A DNA stretch of 32,076 bases from [Collinsella] massiliensis (GTDB lineage Bacteria; Actinomycetota; Coriobacteriia; Coriobacteriales; Coriobacteriaceae). Location of the stretch: positions 1 to 32,076 of the forward strand of contig CAPI01000040.1 in NCBI GenBank assembly GCA_000333815.1. Direction: 5' to 3'. Position numbers and translations under genes: made by a program. Under the pieces are notes generated by a model. It had not been told where the DNA came from, did no database searches, and saw only the letters and a list, made by a program, of their open reading frames with translations. Below are positions 9,153 to 26,160 of this stretch, piece after piece (position 1 is the first letter of the stretch; each line of letters starts with the position of its first letter).

Positions 9153-9185
9153 ATGTCTATCCTCATGTAGCGTAGGGATAGATAT
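9153..9185 (+). promoter_or_regulatory. 5'-end hairpin of the adhesin transcript
   Basis: TCTATCC (9156-9162) pairs with GGATAGA (9176-9182), and flanking A-T and G-T pairs extend the stem. It begins almost exactly at the predicted transcription start. A stem at the extreme 5' end can protect a long mRNA from decay. It also covers an upstream in-frame ATG at 9184, which argues against that start. Confidence 0.45.
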
Positions 9186-9243
9186 GCGCAAATGCAGCGT
9201 AATGGTAGTTCGCGTGTCGGTAAGGGATGGGAAGGTTATGTTG

Positions 9244-12200
9244 ATGGCAGGAACCCACAAGAAACCCCGCGGGGGGGGGCGCTCTAGGGCGATAGTGGCT
9301 GCAGCCCTCGCAGCCGTGCTGTTCGTCGTGGTGTCGGTGGCGTCGTTCATAGGCGTCGCGCGAGCCGCGGGCGTCACGGGCAAGACGGTGGTCGACCCGG
9401 ATACGACGAATAGCTGGACGCAGTACACGCGTCCCGATGATCAGCCGTCAACGCAGAACGTCGGTCGCATCTGGACCGACAAGAGCGTGTTCGATGACAC
9501 GTACACGTTCAAGAACGACGACAACGAAGGTCTGAGCGGGCAGTCCATCACGAAGGGCGACTCCGACTTTATCGTGAGCCTTTCGGCGCTGTCCTCGACG
9601 TCCAACCTCAAGTCGACGACGGTTTCGACGAAGCCGCTCGACATCGTGCTGGTGCTGGACGTGTCCGGGTCGATGTCCCAAAGCATGGGCACGACCTACA
9701 CCTATACCGAGGCCTATCCGAGCAACCATCGCGGAACCTATTACGTCAAGGTGGATGGAGCCTGGCAGCAGGTTGAGTATTTCGAGCCGGGTCGGTGGGA
9801 TTCTGATCCGGAAGGCTGGCGGTACCGCAGCGGCGGAAGCGGTTGGAATCCGCAATATACCTACGTAGAGCCGAAGACCTCGCCTGCGGACAACGATCCC
9901 GATCACATTCAGTTCTACTCGCGCGGGCACGGTCAGAACATCAGCAAGATTGATGCGCTGCAGAACGCGGCGGACGCATTTGTTGATTCCGTCGCCGAAA
10001 TGAACGATGGCATCACAGATCCCAATAATCAGCACCGCATCTCGCTGGTGAAGTTCGCCAGCGGTAGCCGTGACAACATCGGCAACAACAAAGATGGGGA
10101 CGGATACAACAATTCCCAGGTCGTGTCTGACCTTGCGCCATACACGACCGATAACGCTGCAACGCTCAAAAATACCATCGATAGGCTTGAGCCGGCTGGC
10201 TCTACCTATGCGAACTACGGTATGAGTCATGCGAAGCGTGTGTTGGATGGCGGAGAGGGACTGACCGGCGCCCGCGCCAACGCGCAGAAGGTCGTTATCT
10301 TCTTCACTGATGGTGAACCCGGATATAGCGAATGGAGCGGTTCCGTTGCCGCCGAAGCTATTAACTATGCATACGACATGAAACAAGACGGCACGCTGAT
10401 TTATAGTATCGGCGTGTTCCAGGATGCCGATCCGAGCGACACGAGCGGCAATTTCAACAAATACATGAACGCTGTTTCGAGCAACTATAGAGATGCTCAG
10501 TGCGCGGAGAATACTTCGTGGTTCCCTTGGGATGAGCCGAACTACGAGCAGACAGATGACTTTGGTGATCTCATGCTTGGCGACCGTACGACGGGTGCCC
10601 AGGGTGAGCCGAATCCCGATTACTACTTCGCTGCGACAGATTCCGAACAGCTCGATCAGGTCTTCGAGGACATCACGTCCTCCATCACCGAGAACGTTGG
10701 TTCTGGTTCGCCGATCGTTGACAACTCCCTCGAGGGCAACCTCGCCCCGGGTAATCTCACCTTCACCGATCAGCTCGGCTCCTACATGCAGGTGACGGGC
10801 ACCGGCGTCGGTAAAGACCAGATTCAGCTTGCCTATGGCGACGAGATCTATACAAGTGACAGCAAAGAGACGAACGGCAACGTCGACACCTATCACTTCA
10901 CCGGTACGGTTGACGGCAACGCTGTGTACGGTTCGGCGAATCTTGCCGACCTTACGGTGACGGTTACCCGCAGCGATGACCTTGCCACGGGCGACACCAT
11001 CACCGTTACCCTTCCTGCATCCCTTATCCCGCTGCGCAACTACAACGTTGATACCGACACCGGTGACATGACGGTGTCCCAGGCATATCCTGTGCGTCTG
11101 TTCTACGGCGTGAGCCTGAAGGCTGAGGCCAAGGAGGCGCTTAACAAACCGTCGAGCGACGAGTACGCGGCTATCGTGGCTTCCCAGAAGTCCGCGGATG
11201 GCAAGACCATCGACTTCTATTCCAACAACTTCACGGCCGGCGCAGCCGACGGTCTCACGACGGCGACCTTCGAGCCCAACGCGGGCAACAAGTTCTACTA
11301 CTACACGCAGAACACCACGCTCTACGTCGACGAGGGCTGCAACACCGAGGCGACTCAGTGGAACATCGGTAATTACAACACCCTCTACTGGAAGGACACC
11401 TACTGGGTGCAGACCAGCGAGGGCACGGGCGAGGAGCGCTCCACGGGCGTCGCCATTCAGCGCGGCACCGCTGAGTGGAACGCGATGCAGAAAGAGGATG
11501 GTTGGGACGGTGCCTACTACATTCCCGCCGGTACCCAGCGCACCGACCGTCCCGCAACGCTGACCGACGGGAAGGACTCGAACGAAACGAAGACCGCGGC
11601 CAACGTGCTCAACCCGTCGTGGAGCGACACCGACGAGGTCACCCAGGCGCTCGGCAACAACGGCAAGCTCTACTACGAGATGCCCGGTTCGCTCGAGATC
11701 AAGAAGACGGTCGACTGGGGCAACGCGTCCGACGAGACCAAGCAGAATACGGAAAAGAACACGTTCACGTTCGAAATCACGGCAAGCGTGCCTTCCGATG
11801 AGGAGGGTAAGACCGAGCCGCTTTCCGGCACCTATAACTACTACGTCGGTGACAAGGCTGACGGCAATGTGACGTTCAACGAAGGCAAGGCGACGCTGGA
11901 GGTTAAGGGCGGCACGACGGTTCGCATCGACAGCCTGCCCGTTGGCACCGAGTTCACGGTGACCGAGAAGGGCGTCGGCGACAACGGCTGGACTGTGAAG
12001 GATGCCACGGCGCAGGATGGCGTTCAGAACGACAACACCACCGACGGCATCGTGACCGGTACCATCGAGTCCGCTACGCAGGTCTCCCTGACGTTCGACA
12101 ACGTGTATCGCGCCGCCGACGTGAACCTCAGCACGAACACCACACTCAGCGTGGAGAAGGTGCTCAAGGGCCGCGACTGGCGCGACAGCGACGAGTTCAC

Positions 12201-15200
12201 GTTTGATATCGATGGGCTGGGCAATACGGCCGGGAACGGTATTACCACGCCCGAACCTGCCGACACAACCATCACGGTGAACAGCCAGACCGAGGATTAC
12301 AAGGCTTCCTTCGGAGACATCACGTTCACCGCACCCGGCGAGTATCGCTACAACATCACTGAGGACAACGACACCGATCCGATCAACGGCATCGACTACT
12401 CCGCGGCGATTTACCGCGTGGTGGTCACGGTGACCGATGACGGTAACGGTAAGCTCGTGGTCTCCAAGGTCGAGCTGCAGCAGACCCAGAACGATGAGGG
12501 CACGATGGGGGCCGGCGCCGACCCGGTGCCGGTTGAGGGCAGCACCGCCACGTTCACGAATACGTATGACGTGAACTCCGCTCCCACCAACATCGACGGC
12601 ACGAAGGTCTACAACGACACTACGGGCGGCAACGGCATCGACTACGGTAAGTTCACCTTCCAGCTCGAGGCGCTTGGTGGCTACGAGACCAAGGGCGGTA
12701 GCTCCGTGAACTACACGGTTGACGCAACAGACGTCCCGATGCCCGCGGACGTTGCCGAGGGAACCACGACCAAGCAGGTGACCAACACCGGCCATGACTT
12801 CACCTTCGGTACCATCAACTATGACGGCAACGATGTTGGCAAGACCTTCGAGTACAAGGTGACCGAGATCGCCGGCGACGAGCAGGGCATGACCTACGAC
12901 AAAACCGAGCGCATCGTTCAGGTGGAGGTCGAGGAGGTCACTACGGGCGAGGGGACTCCCGAGGAGGAGACCCATCTGGTCGCCACCGTGCTGTCTCCGT
13001 ATGACACGCCTGCCGGCCTCGCGTTCAACAACGAGTACGACCCGGCCGACGCCGAGCTCAAGGGCGATACCGCCATCCACGGCACCAAGACCCTTACCGG
13101 TCGCGAGATGCATGACGACGAGACGTTCTACTTCCAGCTGACGGCGACGAACGATAACGCGAAGAGCATTCTGCCCGATGCGGAGGTCGTCCAGGTTACC
13201 AAGGCCGACATGCAGGGCGGATCTGCTGACTTCTTCTTCAAGGACATGGCGTTCGCCAAGACGGGCGAGTACACGTTCACCGTGGACGAGGTCGCGTCTG
13301 ACGGTCAGGGTGACTACATCGAGACCGCCAACGGTGCCGGCATGACCTACGACACCAACATCTGCACCGTGACGGTCAACGTGACGGACAGCCACGATGG
13401 AACGCTCCAGGCTAAGGTTACCTATCGCAATGACAAGCACGCAGGCGAGATCGAAGGCGCGTACTTCAAGAACACCTACGAGGCGTCCATGGACTACGGC
13501 GCCGAGGGCAAGGGCGGCATCAAGGTGACCAAGCAGCTCACCAACCGCCCGATGGATGCTGACGAGTTCGCGTTCTCCATTACGGGCGTGGCAAATGACA
13601 GCGGAAAGACCACTGCCGATGATGCCAACGAGAAGCTGACTGAGGTCGATACGAGCTTTAAGAACACGGCGGCTGCATCCGGTCAGACCATCACCATGGA
13701 CAAGCTCCAGGGCGTGACCTTCGACGAGACCGATGCGGGCAAGACCTACAGCTACATCGTGGACGAGGTCACCGAGAGCGGCGCCCCGCAGGTGACCTAT
13801 GACCAGACCCAGTATCGCGTGGACATCGAGGTCGTGGACAACGGCAACGGCACCATGCACACGCTCACCACGGTGACGAAGATCCAGAACGCCCAGGGCG
13901 AGCCCGCGGACGAAGTCATCGTTGACAAGGCGGACTCCGATGCCGACGGCTACACCGCGCCGACCTTCGGCTTCGTCAACGAATACAACCCGACGCCTGC
14001 CACGGTGGGAGAGGACGCCGATTATCAGATCCAGGTGACCAAGTATGTTGAGGGCGCGGATTCCGCGACCGACTACACCTTCACGCTCAAGCTCGCTGAC
14101 AGCAGCACTGGCATGGCAGGTTACGTGAAGGGTCTGGGTCCGGACGGCACGATGACTGTCAACACGACGGACACCATCAAGGCCGGTGAGTCCCAGAGGC
14201 TCACGTTCGGCGATTTGGCCTTCACCAAGCCGGGCACCTACACCTTCACGGTGCAGGAGAACGCGCCTGACGCGGATGCAGGCTGGGCGTTTGACACGAG
14301 CGAGCGCACGGTGACCGTTGAGGTAACCGATCGCAACGCCGAGGGTAAGTACGACGGCAAGCTCTACATCGCCAAGGTGGATGGCAGCCCGGTTGAGATT
14401 ACTAACCGCTATGCGGCCGATCCGGTGGTCGTGGGCGGCGAGGACGCCGAGCAGCAGATCACGGTTCGAAAGACCGTGACGGGCGCTGCCTCCACCACGG
14501 ACTTCCAGTTCAAGATCGAGCCGGTCGACAAGGACGACGAGAAGTGGGACAACGTCAAGGCTGTTGAGAGTGACTTCGACGGCCAGACCTCCATCACCGA
14601 GGACTTCGCTGACGGCGACACCAAGACGGCCGCCTTCGGCGCCATCAAGTTCAGCGCCACGGGCGAGTACCAGTTCAAGATCACCGAGGTTGGCGCAGCT
14701 GACTTCAACGATGGCGTCAATCGTAATGGTTGGACCTACGACGAGCACGCGGCATTCGTGACCGTCACGGTGACCGACAACGGCGAGGGCCAGCTCGTCG
14801 CTAAGCTGACCTACGACAACGACGGCGCGAACACCGATACCGACAAGCAGGTGGAAGACGCTGCCGCGTTCACCAACGCTTACACGACGACGCCTGTCGA
14901 GCTGACCCAGGATGCCGAGTCGGGCATCGGTGTTCAGAAGAAGGTCGAGGGCGCGCCGAACTCGGCGAACTTCACCTTCAGCGCGACCTTCAATGCCGAC
15001 GCGAGTGCGGAGAAGGCCGCCGCGGCCGACATGGCCGCGGGCAAAGCCGCCGGTATTGAGGGCCTGACCGAGGGCAAGCTCTCCGTGACCATCAAGGACG
15101 ACTTTGAGGCTGGTGACACCAAGGCCGCCGACTTCGGCACGATCAAGCTCACCAAGCCGGGCGTGTACGTGTTCGACGTGACGGAGGACAACGCCAAGGT

Positions 15201-18200
15201 CGAGGAGCCCAACGGCTGGACCTACGACAAGACAACCCACCAGATCACGGTGACGGTCACCGACAACGGCAAGGGTCAGCTCGAGGCTACGGTTGACGGC
15301 AACGACCCGCTGTTCACCAACAGCTACCATGCCCATAGCGTGACGCTGCGCGGCGAGGATCAGCTCAAGGTGACCAAGGAGGTCACGGGCGCGCCCGCGC
15401 TCTCCGACTTCGAGTTCACCCTGACGCTCATCGAAGGCGATGCAACTGCTGTGACGGGCATCGACGAGCATGGCATCACCAAATCCACCTCTGGCCTGAA
15501 AGACAAGACGGGCGACGAGGCGAAGCAGACCGTCGAGTTCGGCGAGCTGACCTTCACGAAGGCTGGCACCTATACATTCCAGGTTGTCGAGAACACCACG
15601 ACGGATGCCGCTGGCTGGACCTATGCTTCTGGCGACGATAACGCCCAGACCATCACGGTCACGGTGACGGACGATCAGGTCAGCGGTCAGCTTGAGGCCA
15701 CTACCGAGCTGGATGGCGAGGAAACCAACAACCCGACCTTCACCAACAGCTACAAGGCTGGTTCCATCACCACGGGCACCGACAATGGCATCAACGTCCA
15801 GAAGACGCTGACCGGCCGTGATTGGCTGGAGGGCGACAGCTTCGAGTTCGTCCTCGAGGCGGTTGATGGCGCCCCCATGCCCGAGGGCGACGGCAACAAG
15901 GTGACCATCACCGATAAGAGCGATCCCAAGACCGCAGTGTTCAGTGGCATCACCTATGAGGCTGCTGGCGATTACAAGTACACGGTCACGGAGACCAAGG
16001 GGACTTTGGGCGGCGTGACCTACGACGAACACGTGACGAACGTGACGGTGACCATCGCCGACGATGATTACGATGGTTCCTTCGAGGTCAAGTCGGTCGT
16101 GTACGACAACTCCGATGCCGCTACCGATGCCGACCAGGCTGTGGACAACGCTGCCGCGTTCACCAACGTATACAAGGCGTCTGGCTCGCTCGACGGCGAT
16201 GCCGACGGCAACCTCACCGTGACCAAGAGCTACACGAGCAACCTGGGCGACCCCTGGACGCCGGACGATAGCTTCGGCTTCACGCTCGCGGCTGACACCA
16301 CGGACGAGCCGACGAAGCAGGCCGTTGATAACGGCTGGATCGCTCTGCCCGAGAACGCGGGCAAGGCCGATGAGCCTGGCATCACGGTAACCGCCGAGAG
16401 CAAGAACCATCAGGCTTCCTTCGGTGACATCATCTTCACGCACGCGGGCACGTTCAAGTTCACCGTGCGCGAGGTGCTGCCCGAGGGTGTGAGCACCGAC
16501 AACCCGACCAAGGACGGCATCACCTACGACACGTCCGTCAAGACCGTGACGGTCAACGTGAACGATAACGGCGACGGCACCCTGACGGCCACGGTGGCAG
16601 AGGGCAGCGATGCGCTGACCTTCGACAACACCTACAACGTGCAGCCCGTCATGTTCCGTGCGGCGCACTTCGCGCTGCAGGGCAACAAGGTGCTCGACGG
16701 CCGCACCTGGGAGCAGGGTGACGCCTTCACCTTCACCATGACGGCTGGCCGCGGCACCAACCCTGACGGCGAAACGCAGATGGATCCCGGCGTGGTCGAG
16801 GCGACCATGCCCGAAAAGACCACCGATACCATCGAGCCGCTGGCGGATGGTTCCAAGGTGACCGACAACTCCGCTCAGTTCACCTTCACCGACGAGCGTT
16901 ACCCCGGCGGCGACGTGGCGCCCGATGCGAAGGACGTGTTCACGTTTACGCAGCCCGGTACCTATCGCTACCTCATCGCCGAGACCAACCCCAACGCTTC
17001 GAACCCCGGCTCGGGCATCCTGGGCGTGACCTACGACCAGACGCAGTACCGCCTGACCGTGGTCGTTGAGGACGATGGCAACGGCAACCTCGAGGTGACG
17101 AGCAGCAAGTTCTCGTCGCGCCCGACCGCGGGCTCCGGCGAGTGGTCTGACATCGCCGGCGACCAGGGCATCACGTTCACCAACAAGTACTCGGCGAACG
17201 AGGTGGGCGTTTCGTTCAACGCCGCCAAGGTGCTGACCGGCCGCGACACCGCCATGTCCGACAACGAGTTCATGTTCCACATGACGTTTGCCGGCTGGAT
17301 GTCGAACGACGACTTCGACGCCCAGTCCGAGGATTGGAAGATGGACGGCGAGGTTGCCGAGAAGGCTCCTGCGGCCGCGCCCGACAAGGGCAACATCATT
17401 CGCGGCGACGTGATCTTCGACAACGTGACGTTCACGAGCGATAACGTGGGCTACACCTATCGCTACGCTATCACCGAGGTGATTCCGGACGACGCGACGA
17501 ACGCCGCGTATCCGGACGTGACCTACGGCACGGCTTCGGCCGAGCAGAAGGCCGGCACCGGCTGGACGAAGAACGGCGTGACCTATGACGGTTCCACCAA
17601 GTACGTGACCGCCAAGGTGACGAGCGAGCAGACCCAGGATCAGCAGAACCCCGGCACCTTCATCGAGGTCGTGCGTGTGGCCACGGGCGGTGAGGCTCCG
17701 TACAACGAGCAGACCGGCACGTTCGAAGGCAACGCCATCTTCACCAACACCTACGATGCGGGTTCGACGGATGTCGACACCGGCACCGCCGACGTGCAGC
17801 TCACCAAGGTGCTCACGGGCAAGGCGTGGGACGGCGACAGCTTCACCTTCAAGATCGAGGCCGTTTCCAACACGGCCGGCATCGAGCTTGACCAGCAGCC
17901 CATGCCCGCCCAGACCGAGGTGACGGTCAACGCGGCCACCGGTGAGGACGCCGAGGGCAACGACCAGGCGACCTTCTCGTTCGGGAAGATCTCCTACGAC
18001 ACGCCGGGCACCTATGTATATAAGGTGGCCGAGGTCGCGGGTGATAACCCGGGCATCACGTATTCCACGAACGAGGCCACCATCACGGTGACGGTCGAGG
18101 ACAACAACGCGGGCGGCTACACCACCGGCGTGACGGTTGCCAATAACGTGTTCACCAACCAGTACGCGAGCGAGCTCGACTTCGCGGCGGCCGGTGGCAT

Positions 18201-20460
18201 CGAGATCGCCAAGATCTTCGAGAACGCCGACATGCGCGAGTTCAGCTTCACGGTGAAGCCGGCCGACCAGGCGTCTGCCGACAAGCTCGGCATCGACATG
18301 GACGGCGAGACCTTCACCACGAAGGCGGGTGCCACGGTCGATGACGACAACGCGTCGCACGCCGAGGTCATGATGATCGACGCTGCGACCGAGGCCAAGT
18401 TCACGCAGGACGATGCCGACGACACCTACACCTACACGGTGCAGGAGGTCAAGGGCGCGGATGCCGGCGTCGACTACGACGGCACGGTCTACACCGTGAC
18501 CATCACCACGGCTGACGACGGCCACGGCGGCATCAAGGTGACCACCACGGTGACCGACGGCGCGGACTACACCCAGACCTACGTCTACGACAACGACGAG
18601 AACGAGGACCCGACCGCGGTGATCCCGTTCACCAACACCTACAAGGCGACGGGTGAGCTGGGCGGCAACGGCTCCGCGAGCATCAAGGCCACCAAGACGC
18701 TCACCAACCGCCCGATGGTCGACGGCGAGTTCACCTTCAACGTGACGAACGCTGCCGATCAGAGCGACACGGTGGTTGCCACCGGCACCAACGCCGCGGA
18801 CGGAACCATCACGTTCAGCGCCATCAACTACAGCATCGACCAGATGATGAAGGACGTGGACAACAACCTGGCGACGCCGAGCCTCGTGAACGGCAAGAAC
18901 ACCTTCACCTACACCTATGACGTGACCGAGGACACCACCAACCTGGATGAGGGCGTTGCAGCGACCGATGCCGCGGGCTTCCAGATCACCGTCACGGTGA
19001 CCGACAACGGCGACGGCACGCTCGGGATCGTCGTGGGCTACCCGCAGGGTTCCGAGAACGGCCTCACGTTCCGCAACACTTACGGCGAGGGTCAGACGGG
19101 CCAGCAGACCATCGCCATCGCCGGTGCGAAGCAGCTCAAGGTCGAGTCCGGCAACAACGCGCCCGACATCGCGGGCAAGTACACCTTCACGCTGACCGGC
19201 GAGGACGGCGCGCCGATGCCCGCCACCACCACGGCGACCAACGACGCCTCGGGCAACGTGAGCTTCGGTGACATCACCTTCACCATGGAGAACGTCTTCG
19301 GCGACACGGGCAGCCAGACCGCTGCGGCGACCGCCGAGGCCGAGGGCGAGGGCACCGAGGACGCGCCCGCCGTCGAGTCCGCGCAGCGCACCAAGACCTT
19401 CACCTACACGGTGGCGGAGACGGGTGAGGTCGCGGGCGTGGCGAACGACGCCGAGACCGGCAAGACCTTCACGGTCACGGTGACCGACAACGGCGACGGT
19501 ACGCTCTCCGCGGTGGCCGATCCGGCGCAGGGTGCGCTCTTCACCTTCACGAACACCTACTCCGTCGACCCGCAGACCTCGTCGCCCACGGCTGACGGCG
19601 GCCTGACCCTCACCAAGGAGCTCACCGGCCGCACGATGGACGAGGGCGAGTTCCAGGTGGTCATGGTGGACAAGGACGGCACGCAGGTCTCGCAGGGCGT
19701 GAACGATGCCAACGGCAGCATCGCGCTCGACGCGATCACCTTCACCGCGCCTGGTGACTACACCTACACCTTCTACGAGGTCGATGGCCACAAGGGCGGC
19801 GTGACGTACGACGCGGCACGCTACACCGCGACGGCGTACGTGAAGGACGAGGGCGACGGCACGCTGTCCGTCACCTGGGAGTTCGCGGACGCCAACGGCG
19901 ACCCCGTGACTGACGTGGTCATTAGCAACAGCTACGAGGCACGGGACGCGTCGATCTACGTCGGCGGGTCGAAGGTGCTCGACGGCCGCGCGCTCGCCGA
20001 GGGTGAGTTCTCCTTCGAGCTGCGCGACGCCGACGGTAACGTGCTGCAGACCGTGAAGAACGCGGCGGACGGCGGCTTCGTCTTCGACGCCATGACCTTC
20101 GACACGGCCGGCGAGTACCAGTTCACCGTGGCCGAGGCGCTGCCCGAGGATGACGACCCGGCGACCGCCGGCGTCCAGAAGGACGGCGTGACCTACGACG
20201 AGACCGTCTACACCGTGGACGTGACCGTCGAGGACAACCGCGAGGGCTACCTCTGGGTGACGAGCCTCACCTACAACGGCAAGGCCGAGCTGCCGGTGTT
20301 CTCGAACACCTACGTTGAGCCGGTTGCCCCGGCGGGCCCGAGTGACGACGGCCTGATCCAGACGAGCGACATGATGCCGACCGCCGTGATGGCCGCAGCG
20401 GGCATCGGCGCCGTGTGCGTCGCGGCCGGCGTGGTGACGCGCAAGAAGCGGGGTGAGTAG
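9244..20460 (+). CDS. Giant vWA/FctA-repeat pilin-like surface adhesin
   Basis: This protein of about 3,738 residues (roughly 400 kDa) is predicted to be exported and wall-anchored. In order it has: a basic n-region and hydrophobic signal peptide ending near VARA (about residues 1-40); a vWA domain with MIDAS residues DVSGS (Asp139), Thr321 and Asp356; a linker; a CnaB-like module (about 815-955); 18 FctA/Spy0128-like pilin isopeptide repeats (about 956-3690); then LIQTS, a hydrophobic helix and RKKRGE. Each repeat has the Lys, Glu and Asn expected to form an internal isopeptide bond. The start is set at ATG 9244 because GGGAAGG ends 8 bases upstream. In-frame ATGs at 9238 and 9184 are alternatives. 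The vWA part is visibly less GC-rich than the repeats. A winged-helix gene follows after 3 bases. No sortase gene is in the window. The ligand is unknown; a role in adhesion is inferred from the domain plan. Confidence 0.9.
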   Translation: MAGTHKKPRGGGRSRAIVAAALAAVLFVVVSVASFIGVARAAGVTGKTVVDPDTTNSWTQYTRPDDQPSTQNVGRIWTDKSVFDDTYTFKNDDNEGLSGQSITKGDSDFIVSLSALSSTSNLKSTTVSTKPLDIVLVLDVSGSMSQSMGTTYTYTEAYPSNHRGTYYVKVDGAWQQVEYFEPGRWDSDPEGWRYRSGGSGWNPQYTYVEPKTSPADNDPDHIQFYSRGHGQNISKIDALQNAADAFVDSVAEMNDGITDPNNQHRISLVKFASGSRDNIGNNKDGDGYNNSQVVSDLAPYTTDNAATLKNTIDRLEPAGSTYANYGMSHAKRVLDGGEGLTGARANAQKVVIFFTDGEPGYSEWSGSVAAEAINYAYDMKQDGTLIYSIGVFQDADPSDTSGNFNKYMNAVSSNYRDAQCAENTSWFPWDEPNYEQTDDFGDLMLGDRTTGAQGEPNPDYYFAATDSEQLDQVFEDITSSITENVGSGSPIVDNSLEGNLAPGNLTFTDQLGSYMQVTGTGVGKDQIQLAYGDEIYTSDSKETNGNVDTYHFTGTVDGNAVYGSANLADLTVTVTRSDDLATGDTITVTLPASLIPLRNYNVDTDTGDMTVSQAYPVRLFYGVSLKAEAKEALNKPSSDEYAAIVASQKSADGKTIDFYSNNFTAGAADGLTTATFEPNAGNKFYYYTQNTTLYVDEGCNTEATQWNIGNYNTLYWKDTYWVQTSEGTGEERSTGVAIQRGTAEWNAMQKEDGWDGAYYIPAGTQRTDRPATLTDGKDSNETKTAANVLNPSWSDTDEVTQALGNNGKLYYEMPGSLEIKKTVDWGNASDETKQNTEKNTFTFEITASVPSDEEGKTEPLSGTYNYYVGDKADGNVTFNEGKATLEVKGGTTVRIDSLPVGTEFTVTEKGVGDNGWTVKDATAQDGVQNDNTTDGIVTGTIESATQVSLTFDNVYRAADVNLSTNTTLSVEKVLKGRDWRDSDEFTFDIDGLGNTAGNGITTPEPADTTITVNSQTEDYKASFGDITFTAPGEYRYNITEDNDTDPINGIDYSAAIYRVVVTVTDDGNGKLVVSKVELQQTQNDEGTMGAGADPVPVEGSTATFTNTYDVNSAPTNIDGTKVYNDTTGGNGIDYGKFTFQLEALGGYETKGGSSVNYTVDATDVPMPADVAEGTTTKQVTNTGHDFTFGTINYDGNDVGKTFEYKVTEIAGDEQGMTYDKTERIVQVEVEEVTTGEGTPEEETHLVATVLSPYDTPAGLAFNNEYDPADAELKGDTAIHGTKTLTGREMHDDETFYFQLTATNDNAKSILPDAEVVQVTKADMQGGSADFFFKDMAFAKTGEYTFTVDEVASDGQGDYIETANGAGMTYDTNICTVTVNVTDSHDGTLQAKVTYRNDKHAGEIEGAYFKNTYEASMDYGAEGKGGIKVTKQLTNRPMDADEFAFSITGVANDSGKTTADDANEKLTEVDTSFKNTAAASGQTITMDKLQGVTFDETDAGKTYSYIVDEVTESGAPQVTYDQTQYRVDIEVVDNGNGTMHTLTTVTKIQNAQGEPADEVIVDKADSDADGYTAPTFGFVNEYNPTPATVGEDADYQIQVTKYVEGADSATDYTFTLKLADSSTGMAGYVKGLGPDGTMTVNTTDTIKAGESQRLTFGDLAFTKPGTYTFTVQENAPDADAGWAFDTSERTVTVEVTDRNAEGKYDGKLYIAKVDGSPVEITNRYAADPVVVGGEDAEQQITVRKTVTGAASTTDFQFKIEPVDKDDEKWDNVKAVESDFDGQTSITEDFADGDTKTAAFGAIKFSATGEYQFKITEVGAADFNDGVNRNGWTYDEHAAFVTVTVTDNGEGQLVAKLTYDNDGANTDTDKQVEDAAAFTNAYTTTPVELTQDAESGIGVQKKVEGAPNSANFTFSATFNADASAEKAAAADMAAGKAAGIEGLTEGKLSVTIKDDFEAGDTKAADFGTIKLTKPGVYVFDVTEDNAKVEEPNGWTYDKTTHQITVTVTDNGKGQLEATVDGNDPLFTNSYHAHSVTLRGEDQLKVTKEVTGAPALSDFEFTLTLIEGDATAVTGIDEHGITKSTSGLKDKTGDEAKQTVEFGELTFTKAGTYTFQVVENTTTDAAGWTYASGDDNAQTITVTVTDDQVSGQLEATTELDGEETNNPTFTNSYKAGSITTGTDNGINVQKTLTGRDWLEGDSFEFVLEAVDGAPMPEGDGNKVTITDKSDPKTAVFSGITYEAAGDYKYTVTETKGTLGGVTYDEHVTNVTVTIADDDYDGSFEVKSVVYDNSDAATDADQAVDNAAAFTNVYKASGSLDGDADGNLTVTKSYTSNLGDPWTPDDSFGFTLAADTTDEPTKQAVDNGWIALPENAGKADEPGITVTAESKNHQASFGDIIFTHAGTFKFTVREVLPEGVSTDNPTKDGITYDTSVKTVTVNVNDNGDGTLTATVAEGSDALTFDNTYNVQPVMFRAAHFALQGNKVLDGRTWEQGDAFTFTMTAGRGTNPDGETQMDPGVVEATMPEKTTDTIEPLADGSKVTDNSAQFTFTDERYPGGDVAPDAKDVFTFTQPGTYRYLIAETNPNASNPGSGILGVTYDQTQYRLTVVVEDDGNGNLEVTSSKFSSRPTAGSGEWSDIAGDQGITFTNKYSANEVGVSFNAAKVLTGRDTAMSDNEFMFHMTFAGWMSNDDFDAQSEDWKMDGEVAEKAPAAAPDKGNIIRGDVIFDNVTFTSDNVGYTYRYAITEVIPDDATNAAYPDVTYGTASAEQKAGTGWTKNGVTYDGSTKYVTAKVTSEQTQDQQNPGTFIEVVRVATGGEAPYNEQTGTFEGNAIFTNTYDAGSTDVDTGTADVQLTKVLTGKAWDGDSFTFKIEAVSNTAGIELDQQPMPAQTEVTVNAATGEDAEGNDQATFSFGKISYDTPGTYVYKVAEVAGDNPGITYSTNEATITVTVEDNNAGGYTTGVTVANNVFTNQYASELDFAAAGGIEIAKIFENADMREFSFTVKPADQASADKLGIDMDGETFTTKAGATVDDDNASHAEVMMIDAATEAKFTQDDADDTYTYTVQEVKGADAGVDYDGTVYTVTITTADDGHGGIKVTTTVTDGADYTQTYVYDNDENEDPTAVIPFTNTYKATGELGGNGSASIKATKTLTNRPMVDGEFTFNVTNAADQSDTVVATGTNAADGTITFSAINYSIDQMMKDVDNNLATPSLVNGKNTFTYTYDVTEDTTNLDEGVAATDAAGFQITVTVTDNGDGTLGIVVGYPQGSENGLTFRNTYGEGQTGQQTIAIAGAKQLKVESGNNAPDIAGKYTFTLTGEDGAPMPATTTATNDASGNVSFGDITFTMENVFGDTGSQTAAATAEAEGEGTEDAPAVESAQRTKTFTYTVAETGEVAGVANDAETGKTFTVTVTDNGDGTLSAVADPAQGALFTFTNTYSVDPQTSSPTADGGLTLTKELTGRTMDEGEFQVVMVDKDGTQVSQGVNDANGSIALDAITFTAPGDYTYTFYEVDGHKGGVTYDAARYTATAYVKDEGDGTLSVTWEFADANGDPVTDVVISNSYEARDASIYVGGSKVLDGRALAEGEFSFELRDADGNVLQTVKNAADGGFVFDAMTFDTAGEYQFTVAEALPEDDDPATAGVQKDGVTYDETVYTVDVTVEDNREGYLWVTSLTYNGKAELPVFSNTYVEPVAPAGPSDDGLIQTSDMMPTAVMAAAGIGAVCVAAGVVTRKKRGE
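11686..20313 (+). repeat. Tandem isopeptide pilin modules R1-R19 inside the adhesin gene
   Basis: Nineteen protein modules end with a F/I-x-N-x-Y strand. R1 (11686-12108) is CnaB-like. R2-R19 are FctA-type, with last-tyrosine codons ending at 12567, 13038, 13479, 13986, 14412, 14883, 15327, 15753, 16173, 16635, 17190, 17754, 18165, 18642, 19083, 19560, 19935 and 20313. Units are about 125-188 residues long, and the two last are the shortest. Each starts with a Lys strand (for example VTKxLTGR), has a central TYxFTVxE strand carrying Glu, then GVTYD, then TVTVTDNGDGTL, and ends with FTNTY carrying Asn. The repeats are diverged at DNA level, so this is an old array and not recent slippage. Confidence 0.88.
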
Positions 20461-21034: not shown

Positions 21035-22501
21035 ATGGCGCATACCGATGCAGCGGTCGCAGCGTGCGACCCAGGATGCGCGGCGCACTCCGCACCGCGC
21101 GCGCAGCTGAGCGAGCTCGCCCAGCGCATGCTTTCCCAAACAAGCAAGCACGAAGGAGCCCCTGCGGTGCTCATGCTCGCCGACGGCACGGCGTTCTTCG
21201 GCCGTGCGTGCGGCGCGCGGGGAACCGCGACGGGCGAGGTGTGCTTCAACACCTCGGTCGAGGGGTATTTCGAGGTGCTCACCGACCCGAGCTACGCGGG
21301 GCAGATCGTCACCATGACGTACCCGCAGATCGGGAACTACGGCGTCGACCTGGCGGATACGCAGGTGGCGTCCGGCGCACCCGGCGAGCTCGCAGGCAAC
21401 GTGCGGCCGCCGCTCCGCGCGCTCGTGGTGCGCGACCTCTGCCGCACGCCGTCCAACTGGCGCTCTACCATGAGCCTGCCGGAGTACCTGGACGAGCGCG
21501 GCATCGTGGGCATCGAGGGCGTGGACACGCGCGCGCTCGTGCGGCACCTGCGCGAGACGGGCGCTCAGAAGGGCATCGTCTCGACCGAGGTGCTCGACCT
21601 CGCGGAGCTGCGCGTCCAGCTCGACGCTGCACCCGAGCTGGTGGGGCAGAACCTCGTCGAGACCGTGAGCTGCCGCGAAGCGCACGCCTACGACCCCGGC
21701 CGCGTGCCGCAGGGCCATGCGTTCGCGGAAGCCCCGGCCGCACCCGCCCGGCACCGCGTCGTCGTGTACGACTGCGGCGTGAAGCGCGGCATCCTCGAGG
21801 GCCTGCGCCGCGCCGGCTGCGAGCTTACCGTCGTCCCGTGGGACACCCCGGCGGCTGACGTGCTCGCGCGGCGGCCGGACGGCGTGTTCCTCTCCAACGG
21901 CCCGGGCGACCCGGAGGCTGCGACCAAGACGTACGAGCAGGTGCGCTCCCTGCTGGGGGAGATGCCGGTGTTCGGCATCTGCCTGGGGCACCAGATGATG
22001 AGCCTCGCCGCGGGTGCGCGCATGGAGAAGCTCAAGTACGGTCACCGCGGCGGCAACCACCCCGTCATGAACCTCATCACGCACCGCGTGGAGATCACGG
22101 CGCAGAACCACGGCTTCAACCTGGTGTTCCCGAGCCTGGGCGAACTCGTCCCGGAGCTCTCTGGCGGCGTGTCGGAGCATCCGGTGAGCGCGGACGGCAC
22201 TGTGGCGACGGCTGACCTGCGCTTCTGGGCGGAGCGCGGAATCGCGCCGGTCGTTGCGAACGAGCGCTTCGGCCGCATCCGCCTCACGCACGTGAACCTG
22301 AACGACGGCACCGCCGAGGGCATCCAGTTCCTCGACATCCCCGCCTTCTCGGTGCAGTACCACCCTGAGGCCTCGCCCGGCCCCACCGACGCGCACTACC
22401 TGTTCACCGCGTTCACGCGCCTCATGGACGGCGACCCCGATTACCTCGACATCAACATCGCCCGCGACCGCCTCGCGGGCTGGGAGTTCGCCGCCGCGTA
22501 A
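21035..22501 (+). CDS. carA: Carbamoyl phosphate synthase small (glutaminase) subunit
   Basis: CarA hydrolyses glutamine and channels ammonia to CarB to make carbamoyl phosphate for pyrimidines and arginine. The N-terminal CarA-specific domain (about 45-215) includes ADGTAFFG and FNTSVEGYFEVLTDPSY. The class I glutamine amidotransferase domain has nucleophile Cys316 in GICLGHQ and His443/Glu445 in YHPEA. At 488 residues it is about 100 longer than the usual ~380. There is a ~44-residue N-terminal extension rich in Ala and Cys, and roughly 40 extra residues between QNHGF and THVNLNDGT (about 365-415). The start at 21035 is supported by GGGAAGGAG 5 bases upstream. The extra segments do not touch the catalytic motifs. 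Expression is probably controlled by the PyrR-type element that overlaps the ribosome site. Confidence 0.95.
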   Translation: MAHTDAAVAACDPGCAAHSAPRAQLSELAQRMLSQTSKHEGAPAVLMLADGTAFFGRACGARGTATGEVCFNTSVEGYFEVLTDPSYAGQIVTMTYPQIGNYGVDLADTQVASGAPGELAGNVRPPLRALVVRDLCRTPSNWRSTMSLPEYLDERGIVGIEGVDTRALVRHLRETGAQKGIVSTEVLDLAELRVQLDAAPELVGQNLVETVSCREAHAYDPGRVPQGHAFAEAPAAPARHRVVVYDCGVKRGILEGLRRAGCELTVVPWDTPAADVLARRPDGVFLSNGPGDPEAATKTYEQVRSLLGEMPVFGICLGHQMMSLAAGARMEKLKYGHRGGNHPVMNLITHRVEITAQNHGFNLVFPSLGELVPELSGGVSEHPVSADGTVATADLRFWAERGIAPVVANERFGRIRLTHVNLNDGTAEGIQFLDIPAFSVQYHPEASPGPTDAHYLFTAFTRLMDGDPDYLDINIARDRLAGWEFAAA

Positions 22502-22646
22502 GCGCCGCACGGGCGGACGCGTCCCGCCGGGCAAGCGCCGCACGGGGCGGAACCCCGCCGCGGAGCCGTCCGCGAGGGGAGAACGCCCACCGCGTACGCG
22601 TCGAACGGGGTGAAAGCCCCGCCGCGACCCATTTTTCGCCTCCCAT
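22502..22646 (+). repeat. GC-rich degenerate repeat region after carA
   Basis: AAGCGCCGCACGGG occurs twice (from about 22500 and 22533). Small GGGGxxxxxCCCC hairpins recur: GGGG CGGAA CCCC near 22545 and GGGG TGAAAG CCCC near 22607, the latter followed after ten bases by ATTTTT. It looks like decayed repetitive extragenic sequence, perhaps with a weak terminator. No gene is supported. Confidence 0.4.
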
Positions 22647-22849
22647 CGCGCATTTCTGGTGATGGAATTCAGATATGCACGATGGGCGGCGGCCGAAAGC
22701 GGCAAATCGGAGCTTTTAAGTCCGAAAACGGACGAAAACAGCCCGAAAAAGGGGGTCGCGACGCCAGATTCAGGGGTTCGGAGGCCTTCCGAGCACCGTC
22801 AGCCATCGTCTCATCGTGCATATCTGAATTCCACCACCAGAAATGCGCG
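22647..22849. mobile_element. MITE-like element with 38-bp terminal inverted repeats
   Basis: The sequence from 22647 to 22684 (CGCGCATTTCTGGTGATGG to CACGATG) is the reverse complement of 22812-22849 with only one mismatch. The 203-bp element is flanked by CAT on both sides (22644-22646 and 22850-22852), a possible 3-bp target duplication. The inside holds no gene, only small hairpins (GTCCG AAAA CGGAC at 22720-22733; TCGGA/TCCGA around 22780-22795). It splits carA from carB and ends 26 bases before the carB start. It may instead be a large regulatory cruciform. No transposase of its own is present. Confidence 0.6.
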
Positions 22850-22875
22850 CATCAATTGAAAAAAGGAGCAGCCAC

Positions 22876-26160
<3,285 letters not shown>

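Follow-up and report, generated by a model that had tools for sequence, protein, structure and literature searches.

A dispersed, paired-end DNA element with helically spaced arms between carA and carB in the Coriobacteriaceae

Introduction

The Correia elements of Neisseria (CREE/NEMIS) are reported to be short and intergenic, with inverted repeats of about 26 bp, variant ends and a core directionality, and the long form has an internal IHF bend site that has been proposed to help end synapsis (PMC2649163, PMC10969869, PMC2229807). Inversion or exchange between the ends is also reported for these elements (PMC10969869). REPINs are extragenic and combine two conserved inverted ends with a variable spacer (PMC3116915), and their populations are said to persist for millions of years (PMC8049555).

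Here we describe an inverted repeat between carA and carB in a window of 32,076 nt, the whole stretch of DNA that was analysed. The window is contig C96 of genome G000 (2.33 Mb, 99.65% complete). Among open-access papers we found nothing on this element family, and neither the window nor 12 further loci gave an Rfam match.

Results

Anatomy of the copy between carA and carB

The arms of the repeat occupy positions 22647-22684 and 22812-22849 of the window; they are 38 nt each, differ from perfect complementarity by one mismatch (97% complementary) and enclose 127 nt. They lie in the gap between carA (21035-22501, plus strand, start codon uncertain) and carB (22876-26160, plus strand), both called with a home-made gene finder, and end 26 bp upstream of the carB ATG at 22876. 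These coordinates confirm the inverted repeat with 38-bp ends, a single mismatch and 26 bp to carB that an earlier note had described. The family-wide part of each arm is 27 of the 38 nt. The outer 10 nt (CGCGCATTTC) match between left and right within this copy and are absent from the family consensus.

Reading inward from the left, the copy has an outer T-tract (T5, 22632-22636; T at -36 to -31 in most family arms), an A/T tetrad outside the left arm (W4, 22652-22655; 74-99% AT at -16 to -13 in 118 half-elements), an outer arm module of TGGTG plus a variable 6-nt spacer matched to the right arm (22657-22667, plus strand), and the arm core TTCAGATATGCACGAT (22668-22683, plus strand), as located by the arm-core search of the genome. 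The same search places the inverted right core at 22813-22828 on the minus strand of contig C96, followed outward by the right outer module (22829-22839, minus strand), an A/T tetrad (22841-22844) and an outer A-tract (A6, 22859-22864), which stands at the mirror position of +31 to +36 and directly joins the AAGGAG upstream of carB. The variable interior (22684-22812) has an AT periodicity of about 10.4 bp, with amplitude 0.203 and phase 6.5 in its left half and 0.073 and 7.3 in its right half. A probable centre motif, GATTCAGGGGTTCGG (22767-22781, plus strand; family form AATCCTGGGGTTTTG), is weak here, scoring 10/15 and 8 on the reverse strand.

A CAT trinucleotide flanks the repeat at 22644-22646 and 22850-22852, and the earlier note had read it as a target duplication. 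Since the symmetry of the copy extends outward from T5 to A6, the CAT lies inside the symmetrical anatomy and is not an element end. In a scan of 59 elements over a series of offsets outward from the cores, no direct repeat was consistently shared by the copies, and the best scores fell within the arms; the duplication is therefore not upheld. Elsewhere in the window, positions 9184-20460 hold an ORF of 3,758 aa, probably for a very large surface protein, in which many modules are repeated and a hydrophobic tail lies at the C-terminus; an equally long antisense ORF is spurious.

A dispersed family with arm dialects

Searching genome G000 with the 16-nt arm core at up to two mismatches gave 41 matches, and a reversed-pattern control gave 0. 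The half-sites form 20 inverted pairs, spaced at 134-167 bp, and one lone arm, and no gene-bearing copy was seen among them. The carAB repeat is a copy of a dispersed DNA element of the Coriobacteriaceae that is non-coding and has paired ends. Read inward, the arm plan comprises T5 at -36 to -31, the A/T tetrad at -16 to -13, TGG(TG) at -11 to -7, a variable spacer at -6 to -1 and then TTCAGATATGNRCGATT, and a centre motif (AATCCTGGGGTTTTG in Enorma) stands between the arms in either orientation. Each genome has its own typical outer module: TGGTG-RTGRA in G000, TGGTGGCGCAG in G002, TGGCCGCGCAG in G003, TGGCAGTTAT in G004 and TAGACAGTTAG in G014, where the centre motif also differs from that of Enorma. 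Genus g5 (G012 and G022) has another centre motif and a different inner arm, GTTCAGATTCCGGAGC, as its family marker.

Two loci of G000 (L032:3920-4420 and L037:4000-4420) hold a second, tandem element and a lone arm; their outer modules end in GTTAG or GTTAT-like sequence, as in G014, G004 and genus g5, and they are possible relics of an older arm dialect. At L051 and L060, a degenerate copy with a G002-like arm type adjoins a near-identical predicted protein of 457 aa in G002 and G004, a probable horizontal transfer with the element attached. Several elements of genus g5 (L119, L129, L131, L138, L139, L142 and L145) have a second, mostly AT-rich palindrome at their centre, which is different in most copies.

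The paired pattern was found in 4 of 395 genomes of the order, all of one genus, and in named records of Enorma massiliensis, E. burkinafasonensis and an uncultured Coriobacteriaceae bin. A looser single-arm pattern matched in 9 of 60 relatives; true pairs were present in G000, G002, G003, G004 and G014, and no partner arm was found for the matches in G007, G017, G043 and G052. Copy number ranges from the 20 pairs of G000 to a few in G003 and G004. The paired pattern was absent from viral contigs, where the single-arm pattern occurred, lacking a partner arm, in two near-identical contigs; phage and plasmid collections gave no match.

Further arm variants lie 3' of a prs-like gene in 8 of 24 readable loci out of 29 surveyed (G003, G004, G006, G010, G011, G012, G022 and G029) by an inverted-repeat scan in which 0 of 120 shuffled regions reached at least 18 matched arm bases. 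Between carA and carB, the element is present in 5 of 27 genomes read (G000, G003, G004, G014 and G012), four caught by automatic scan and the diverged G003 copy read by eye, and also in G022, which together span three genera. G001 keeps T5 and A-tract-like flanks at this site and lacks the arms, which looks like loss of the element. The earlier note had said that finding this structure at carAB in every relative, and at no other place, would count against its reading; that is not what we see. Other repeats occupy the same gap elsewhere. In G005, G006 and G008 (L071, L073 and L076), and similarly in G011 (L072), there is a different conserved palindromic stretch around AACGAGGAGGGAGCACGCC...GGCGACCGACGAGTGAAG; it had no Rfam match in L071, L073 and L076 and is perhaps an undescribed structured RNA or repeat. 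Yet another repeat, GGGGACGTGTTCCTTCCAACCC-like, occurs at carAB and elsewhere (L067, L072, L197) in genomes with Y1 transposases, and resembles REP/RAYT repeats.

The arms are whole helical turns apart

Measured from CAGAT to ATCTG, 62 elements are 146-148, 156-159, 167-169 or 178-179 bp long, with no lengths between; three of them, in G010, G011 and G221, measure 157 bp each and were picked up by a pattern whose gap length was limited. The lengths follow a rule of 147 + 10.5n bp (about 147, 157.5, 168 and 178.5), with R = 0.941 at 10.5 bp and a best period of 10.53 bp. The 20 elements of G000 alone give R = 0.945, and the rule is common to arms with different inner sequence. Elements at prs that had been found without the spacing rule also obey it (157 bp in G004, 177 in G006 and 168 in G011); the prs element of G029 has no CAGAT core and was excluded from the spacing analysis. 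In 27 elements with a clear centre, the distance from left arm to centre is 59, 69-70 or 79-80 and that from centre to right arm 71, 82-83, 92-93 or 102-103, each phased, and in most of these the centre is shifted by whole turns while the total length stays constant.

In 118 half-elements, taken from 59 elements, the AT content inside the arms swings from about 0.2 to about 0.7 and back roughly every 10.4 bp (R = 0.787). Each of four groups has a common phase (Rayleigh p 0.01 to 3e-14, values that are too small because orthologous copies among the elements are not independent), and this phase roughly agrees with the positions of the A/T tetrad and T5. Such an oscillation is the pattern of DNA that curves in a single plane or wraps around a protein, and nothing in an RNA role would call for it. 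AT/GC bending signals recur in phase through the interior, and the arms are a whole number of helical turns apart. A weaker in-phase AT signal runs outward to about -100, some 60 bp past the A/T tracts.

Conserved arms and spacing around a drifting interior

Seven orthologous pairs with syntenic flanks could be compared between G012 and G022. Their arms are identical at 343 of 350 positions (98%) and their interiors at 669 of 883 (76%), with 276 of 342 identical in the flanks and 962 of 1201 in the outer DNA. Their interior lengths differ by 0 or 1 bp (140/140, 119/120, 129/129, 140/140, 129/128, 118/118 and 151/151). Because arms and interior length are held while interior sequence drifts, these comparisons indicate that the architecture is under selection: arms and spacing under purifying selection, with a drifting interior. 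Within G000, the interiors have little mutual similarity beyond the short centre motif, except for two copies in L036, which look like a segmental duplication.

Within an element, the variable spacer of one arm matches that of the other. In G000 the match is 0.708 versus 0.556 when arms are re-paired, and 0 of 2000 shuffles were as high; p is 0.018 in G002, 0.064 in G003 and 0.11 in G014, and G004 has no variation. No left-right coupling was found in the arm core of G000. Matching in genus g5 was assessed on the 16 elements from loci read, other listed half-sites without a locus being left out. In one of the seven G012/G022 pairs (L138/L139), the interior is inverted exactly between the arms while the flanks are fixed (reverse score 158, forward 66, shuffled maximum 41); the remaining six are not inverted. 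At prs/pth, the centre has opposite orientations in G000 (L035) and G002 (L052). Orientation in L048 and L055 was ambiguous by score and was read by eye, and comparisons involving G014 were excluded on account of its different centre motif. Both the spacer matching and the inversion would fit recombination or strand exchange between arms.

Mobility and candidate enzymes

At nine G000 loci, all 20 comparisons with relatives G001-G004 showed syntenic flanks and no element, which may reflect either gain in G000 or loss in the relatives. Exact element ends could not be read from these empty sites, intergenic DNA being too diverged in all 20 comparisons. The earlier note's view of a MITE-like element stands to the extent that this is a repeated, intergenic inverted repeat whose arms recur elsewhere in the genome and in relatives (true pairs also in G002, G003, G004 and G014) and which is absent at orthologous sites; the target duplication that was part of that view falls away. 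As the element is found at carA-carB in three genera and sites elsewhere are empty, copies come and go, and some sites are old or repeatedly used.

One copy lies in frame inside hypF in both G000 and G002 (L040:3945-4179 and L047:4014-4247) and leaves the reading frame open. Its arms encode the shared peptides FRYARCG and SCISE. Against the solved 3vth chain, HypF aligns up to residue 670 and again from 771 (629 and 646 in 3vth), so that the insertion comprises about 84 residues relative to 3vth and contains the whole T5-to-A5 span.

We found no autonomous relative or cognate enzyme by half-site pairing or by searches for Y1, serine and tyrosine recombinases. A REPIN system with RAYT was rejected, since neither G003 nor G022, each 99% complete and element-bearing, had a match to PF01797 (Y1_Tnp). 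Serine recombinases had no match in G022, G014 or G002 (the last only 86% complete). The only tyrosine recombinases (PF00589) of G022 are two proteins that both cluster with family-wide Xer-like ones and that we read as Xer-like, and a dedicated tyrosine integrase was rejected there on this basis.

Gene context and RNA folding

The RNA of the carAB element folds far more stably than shuffles on both strands (z = -11.5), as is expected of any 38-bp inverted repeat. A structured RNA should show compensatory pairs and tolerate G-U on the transcribed strand; imperfect arm pairs of tandem elements, counted on the sense strand, include 8 G-U and 11 A-C, that is, no G-U bias. Of 59 elements, 23 lie between tandem genes, 17 between convergent and 11 between divergent genes, with 6 at edges and 2 within an ORF, and control gaps in the same loci are 50 tandem, 28 divergent and 6 convergent. 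The layout, with 17 of 51 classed elements between convergent genes, makes a general promoter-switch role unlikely, and the flanking genes have no evident common theme. The RNA-stem mechanism put forward in the earlier note thus gained no positive support from pair counts or gene layout, and 10.5-bp phasing is beyond what RNA folding would account for. RNA processing at carAB is possible but unsupported. An effect on carB is possible through the right A-tract, which merges into the sequence before the start codon. Because two congeners lack the element there, however, it is probably tolerated at carAB rather than required.

Discussion

The explanation that we favour, with modest confidence, is a MITE- or REPIN-like element that would be folded, through its paired ends and bent interior, into a compact nucleoprotein loop. 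A predicted protein would occupy the two arms from one face of the helix, and the DNA in between, roughly 147-178 bp, would curve into a tight loop, perhaps with a bending protein assisting at the centre, so that the element would act as a compact paired-end complex. It may spread occasionally, like a MITE or a REPIN, with the help in trans of an enzyme encoded in the chromosome. Arms could be compared or exchanged at the 6-8 nt between TGG and TTCAGAT, which vary among copies and match within a copy. The AT phasing beyond the A/T tracts would be odd if the flanks were random host DNA, and we count it against this explanation. Inert MITE copies should not keep intact arms at old sites as these copies do, so mobility may be rare and a host function is possible.

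If copies were instead kept because the loop itself is useful, the element would be a host architectural or regulatory site at which a nucleoid or repressor-like protein bridges the arms around an apex bend, as in the Gal repressosome. Such a site would suit the purifying selection that arms and spacing show at fixed loci, the occupation of carAB and prs across several genera and the phased bends; it is nevertheless rather unlikely given the 20 pairs of G000 against the few of G003 and G004, the nine loci empty in relatives, the copies inside hypF and between convergent genes, and the lack of an evident theme among flanking genes. The exact inversion at L138/L139, the spacer matched between arms and the differing centre orientation at prs/pth would be expected of a switch in which a site-specific recombinase flips the interior and changes expression of a neighbouring gene. 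Such a switch is improbable, since six of seven orthologous pairs are not inverted, 17 of 51 classed copies lie between convergent genes, and in G022 serine recombinases had no match and the tyrosine recombinases comprise only the two Xer-like proteins.

Still less probable is a long RNA stem, cut by RNase III or masking the carB start, that tunes expression of carA and carB: although the fold is very stable, the arms covary at the spacer and the copy lies just before carB, helical phasing has no RNA rationale, G-U pairs are not enriched, Rfam gave no match and copies lie between convergent genes. We give the least weight of all to an ordinary MITE family that has decayed after the loss of its transposon and is under no current selection. 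Terminal inverted repeats, small size, multiple copies and polymorphic presence are what such a family would have, but at fixed loci the arms evolve far more slowly than the interior, spacing is held within 1 bp, and a single half-site among 41 is unpaired.

More tentatively, the element may represent a previously undescribed class, a self-contained DNA-loop module of two inverted sites, an apex motif and in-phase A-tracts at 147 + 10.5n bp that would spread like a transposon and be kept by selection, its recognition sequence drifting into species dialects with a dedicated putative binding protein. A spacing rule that holds over several genera while interior and arms drift would be a clear genomic footprint of a DNA-looping nucleoprotein complex, read from sequence alone. 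The rule is relevant to the way in which REPIN- and MITE-like elements keep their ends together and to the reasons for their persistence, and it makes looping testable, as 5-bp and 10-bp insertions between the arms would be distinguishable. The arm dialects offer a natural series of coevolving DNA sites that could lead to the predicted binding protein.

The carAB-type element resembles MITEs, REPINs and, above all, Correia elements, and it fails the target-duplication and RAYT tests. With MITEs it shares terminal inverted repeats, a non-coding sequence of about 240 bp, multiple copies and absence at orthologous sites of relatives; it differs in that no parental IS or target duplication was seen and that resident copies appear to be under purifying selection. 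Like a REPIN, it has two inverted conserved ends and a variable spacer. Its arms, however, are not compact palindromes, its spacer obeys a rule of helical phase, and Y1/RAYT had no match in G003 and G022. Phase-variable invertible elements and DNA-loop repressosomes likewise place inverted sites on a short phased loop with an apex bend, and one inversion was seen here, but no recombinase or promoter was identified for the element and its gene context is unlike that of a switch. Correia elements are alike in being short intergenic inverted-repeat elements with an internal bend signal, variant ends, a directional core and reported inversion; their cores, by contrast, are conserved in sequence, with few length classes and a target duplication. 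In the present element interiors are unrelated between most copies, length is quantised in helical turns, arm dialects are species-specific and no duplication was seen. It goes beyond these known kinds in that its spacing strictly follows the helical turn, its interior bears a bending signature and its resident copies are under selection.
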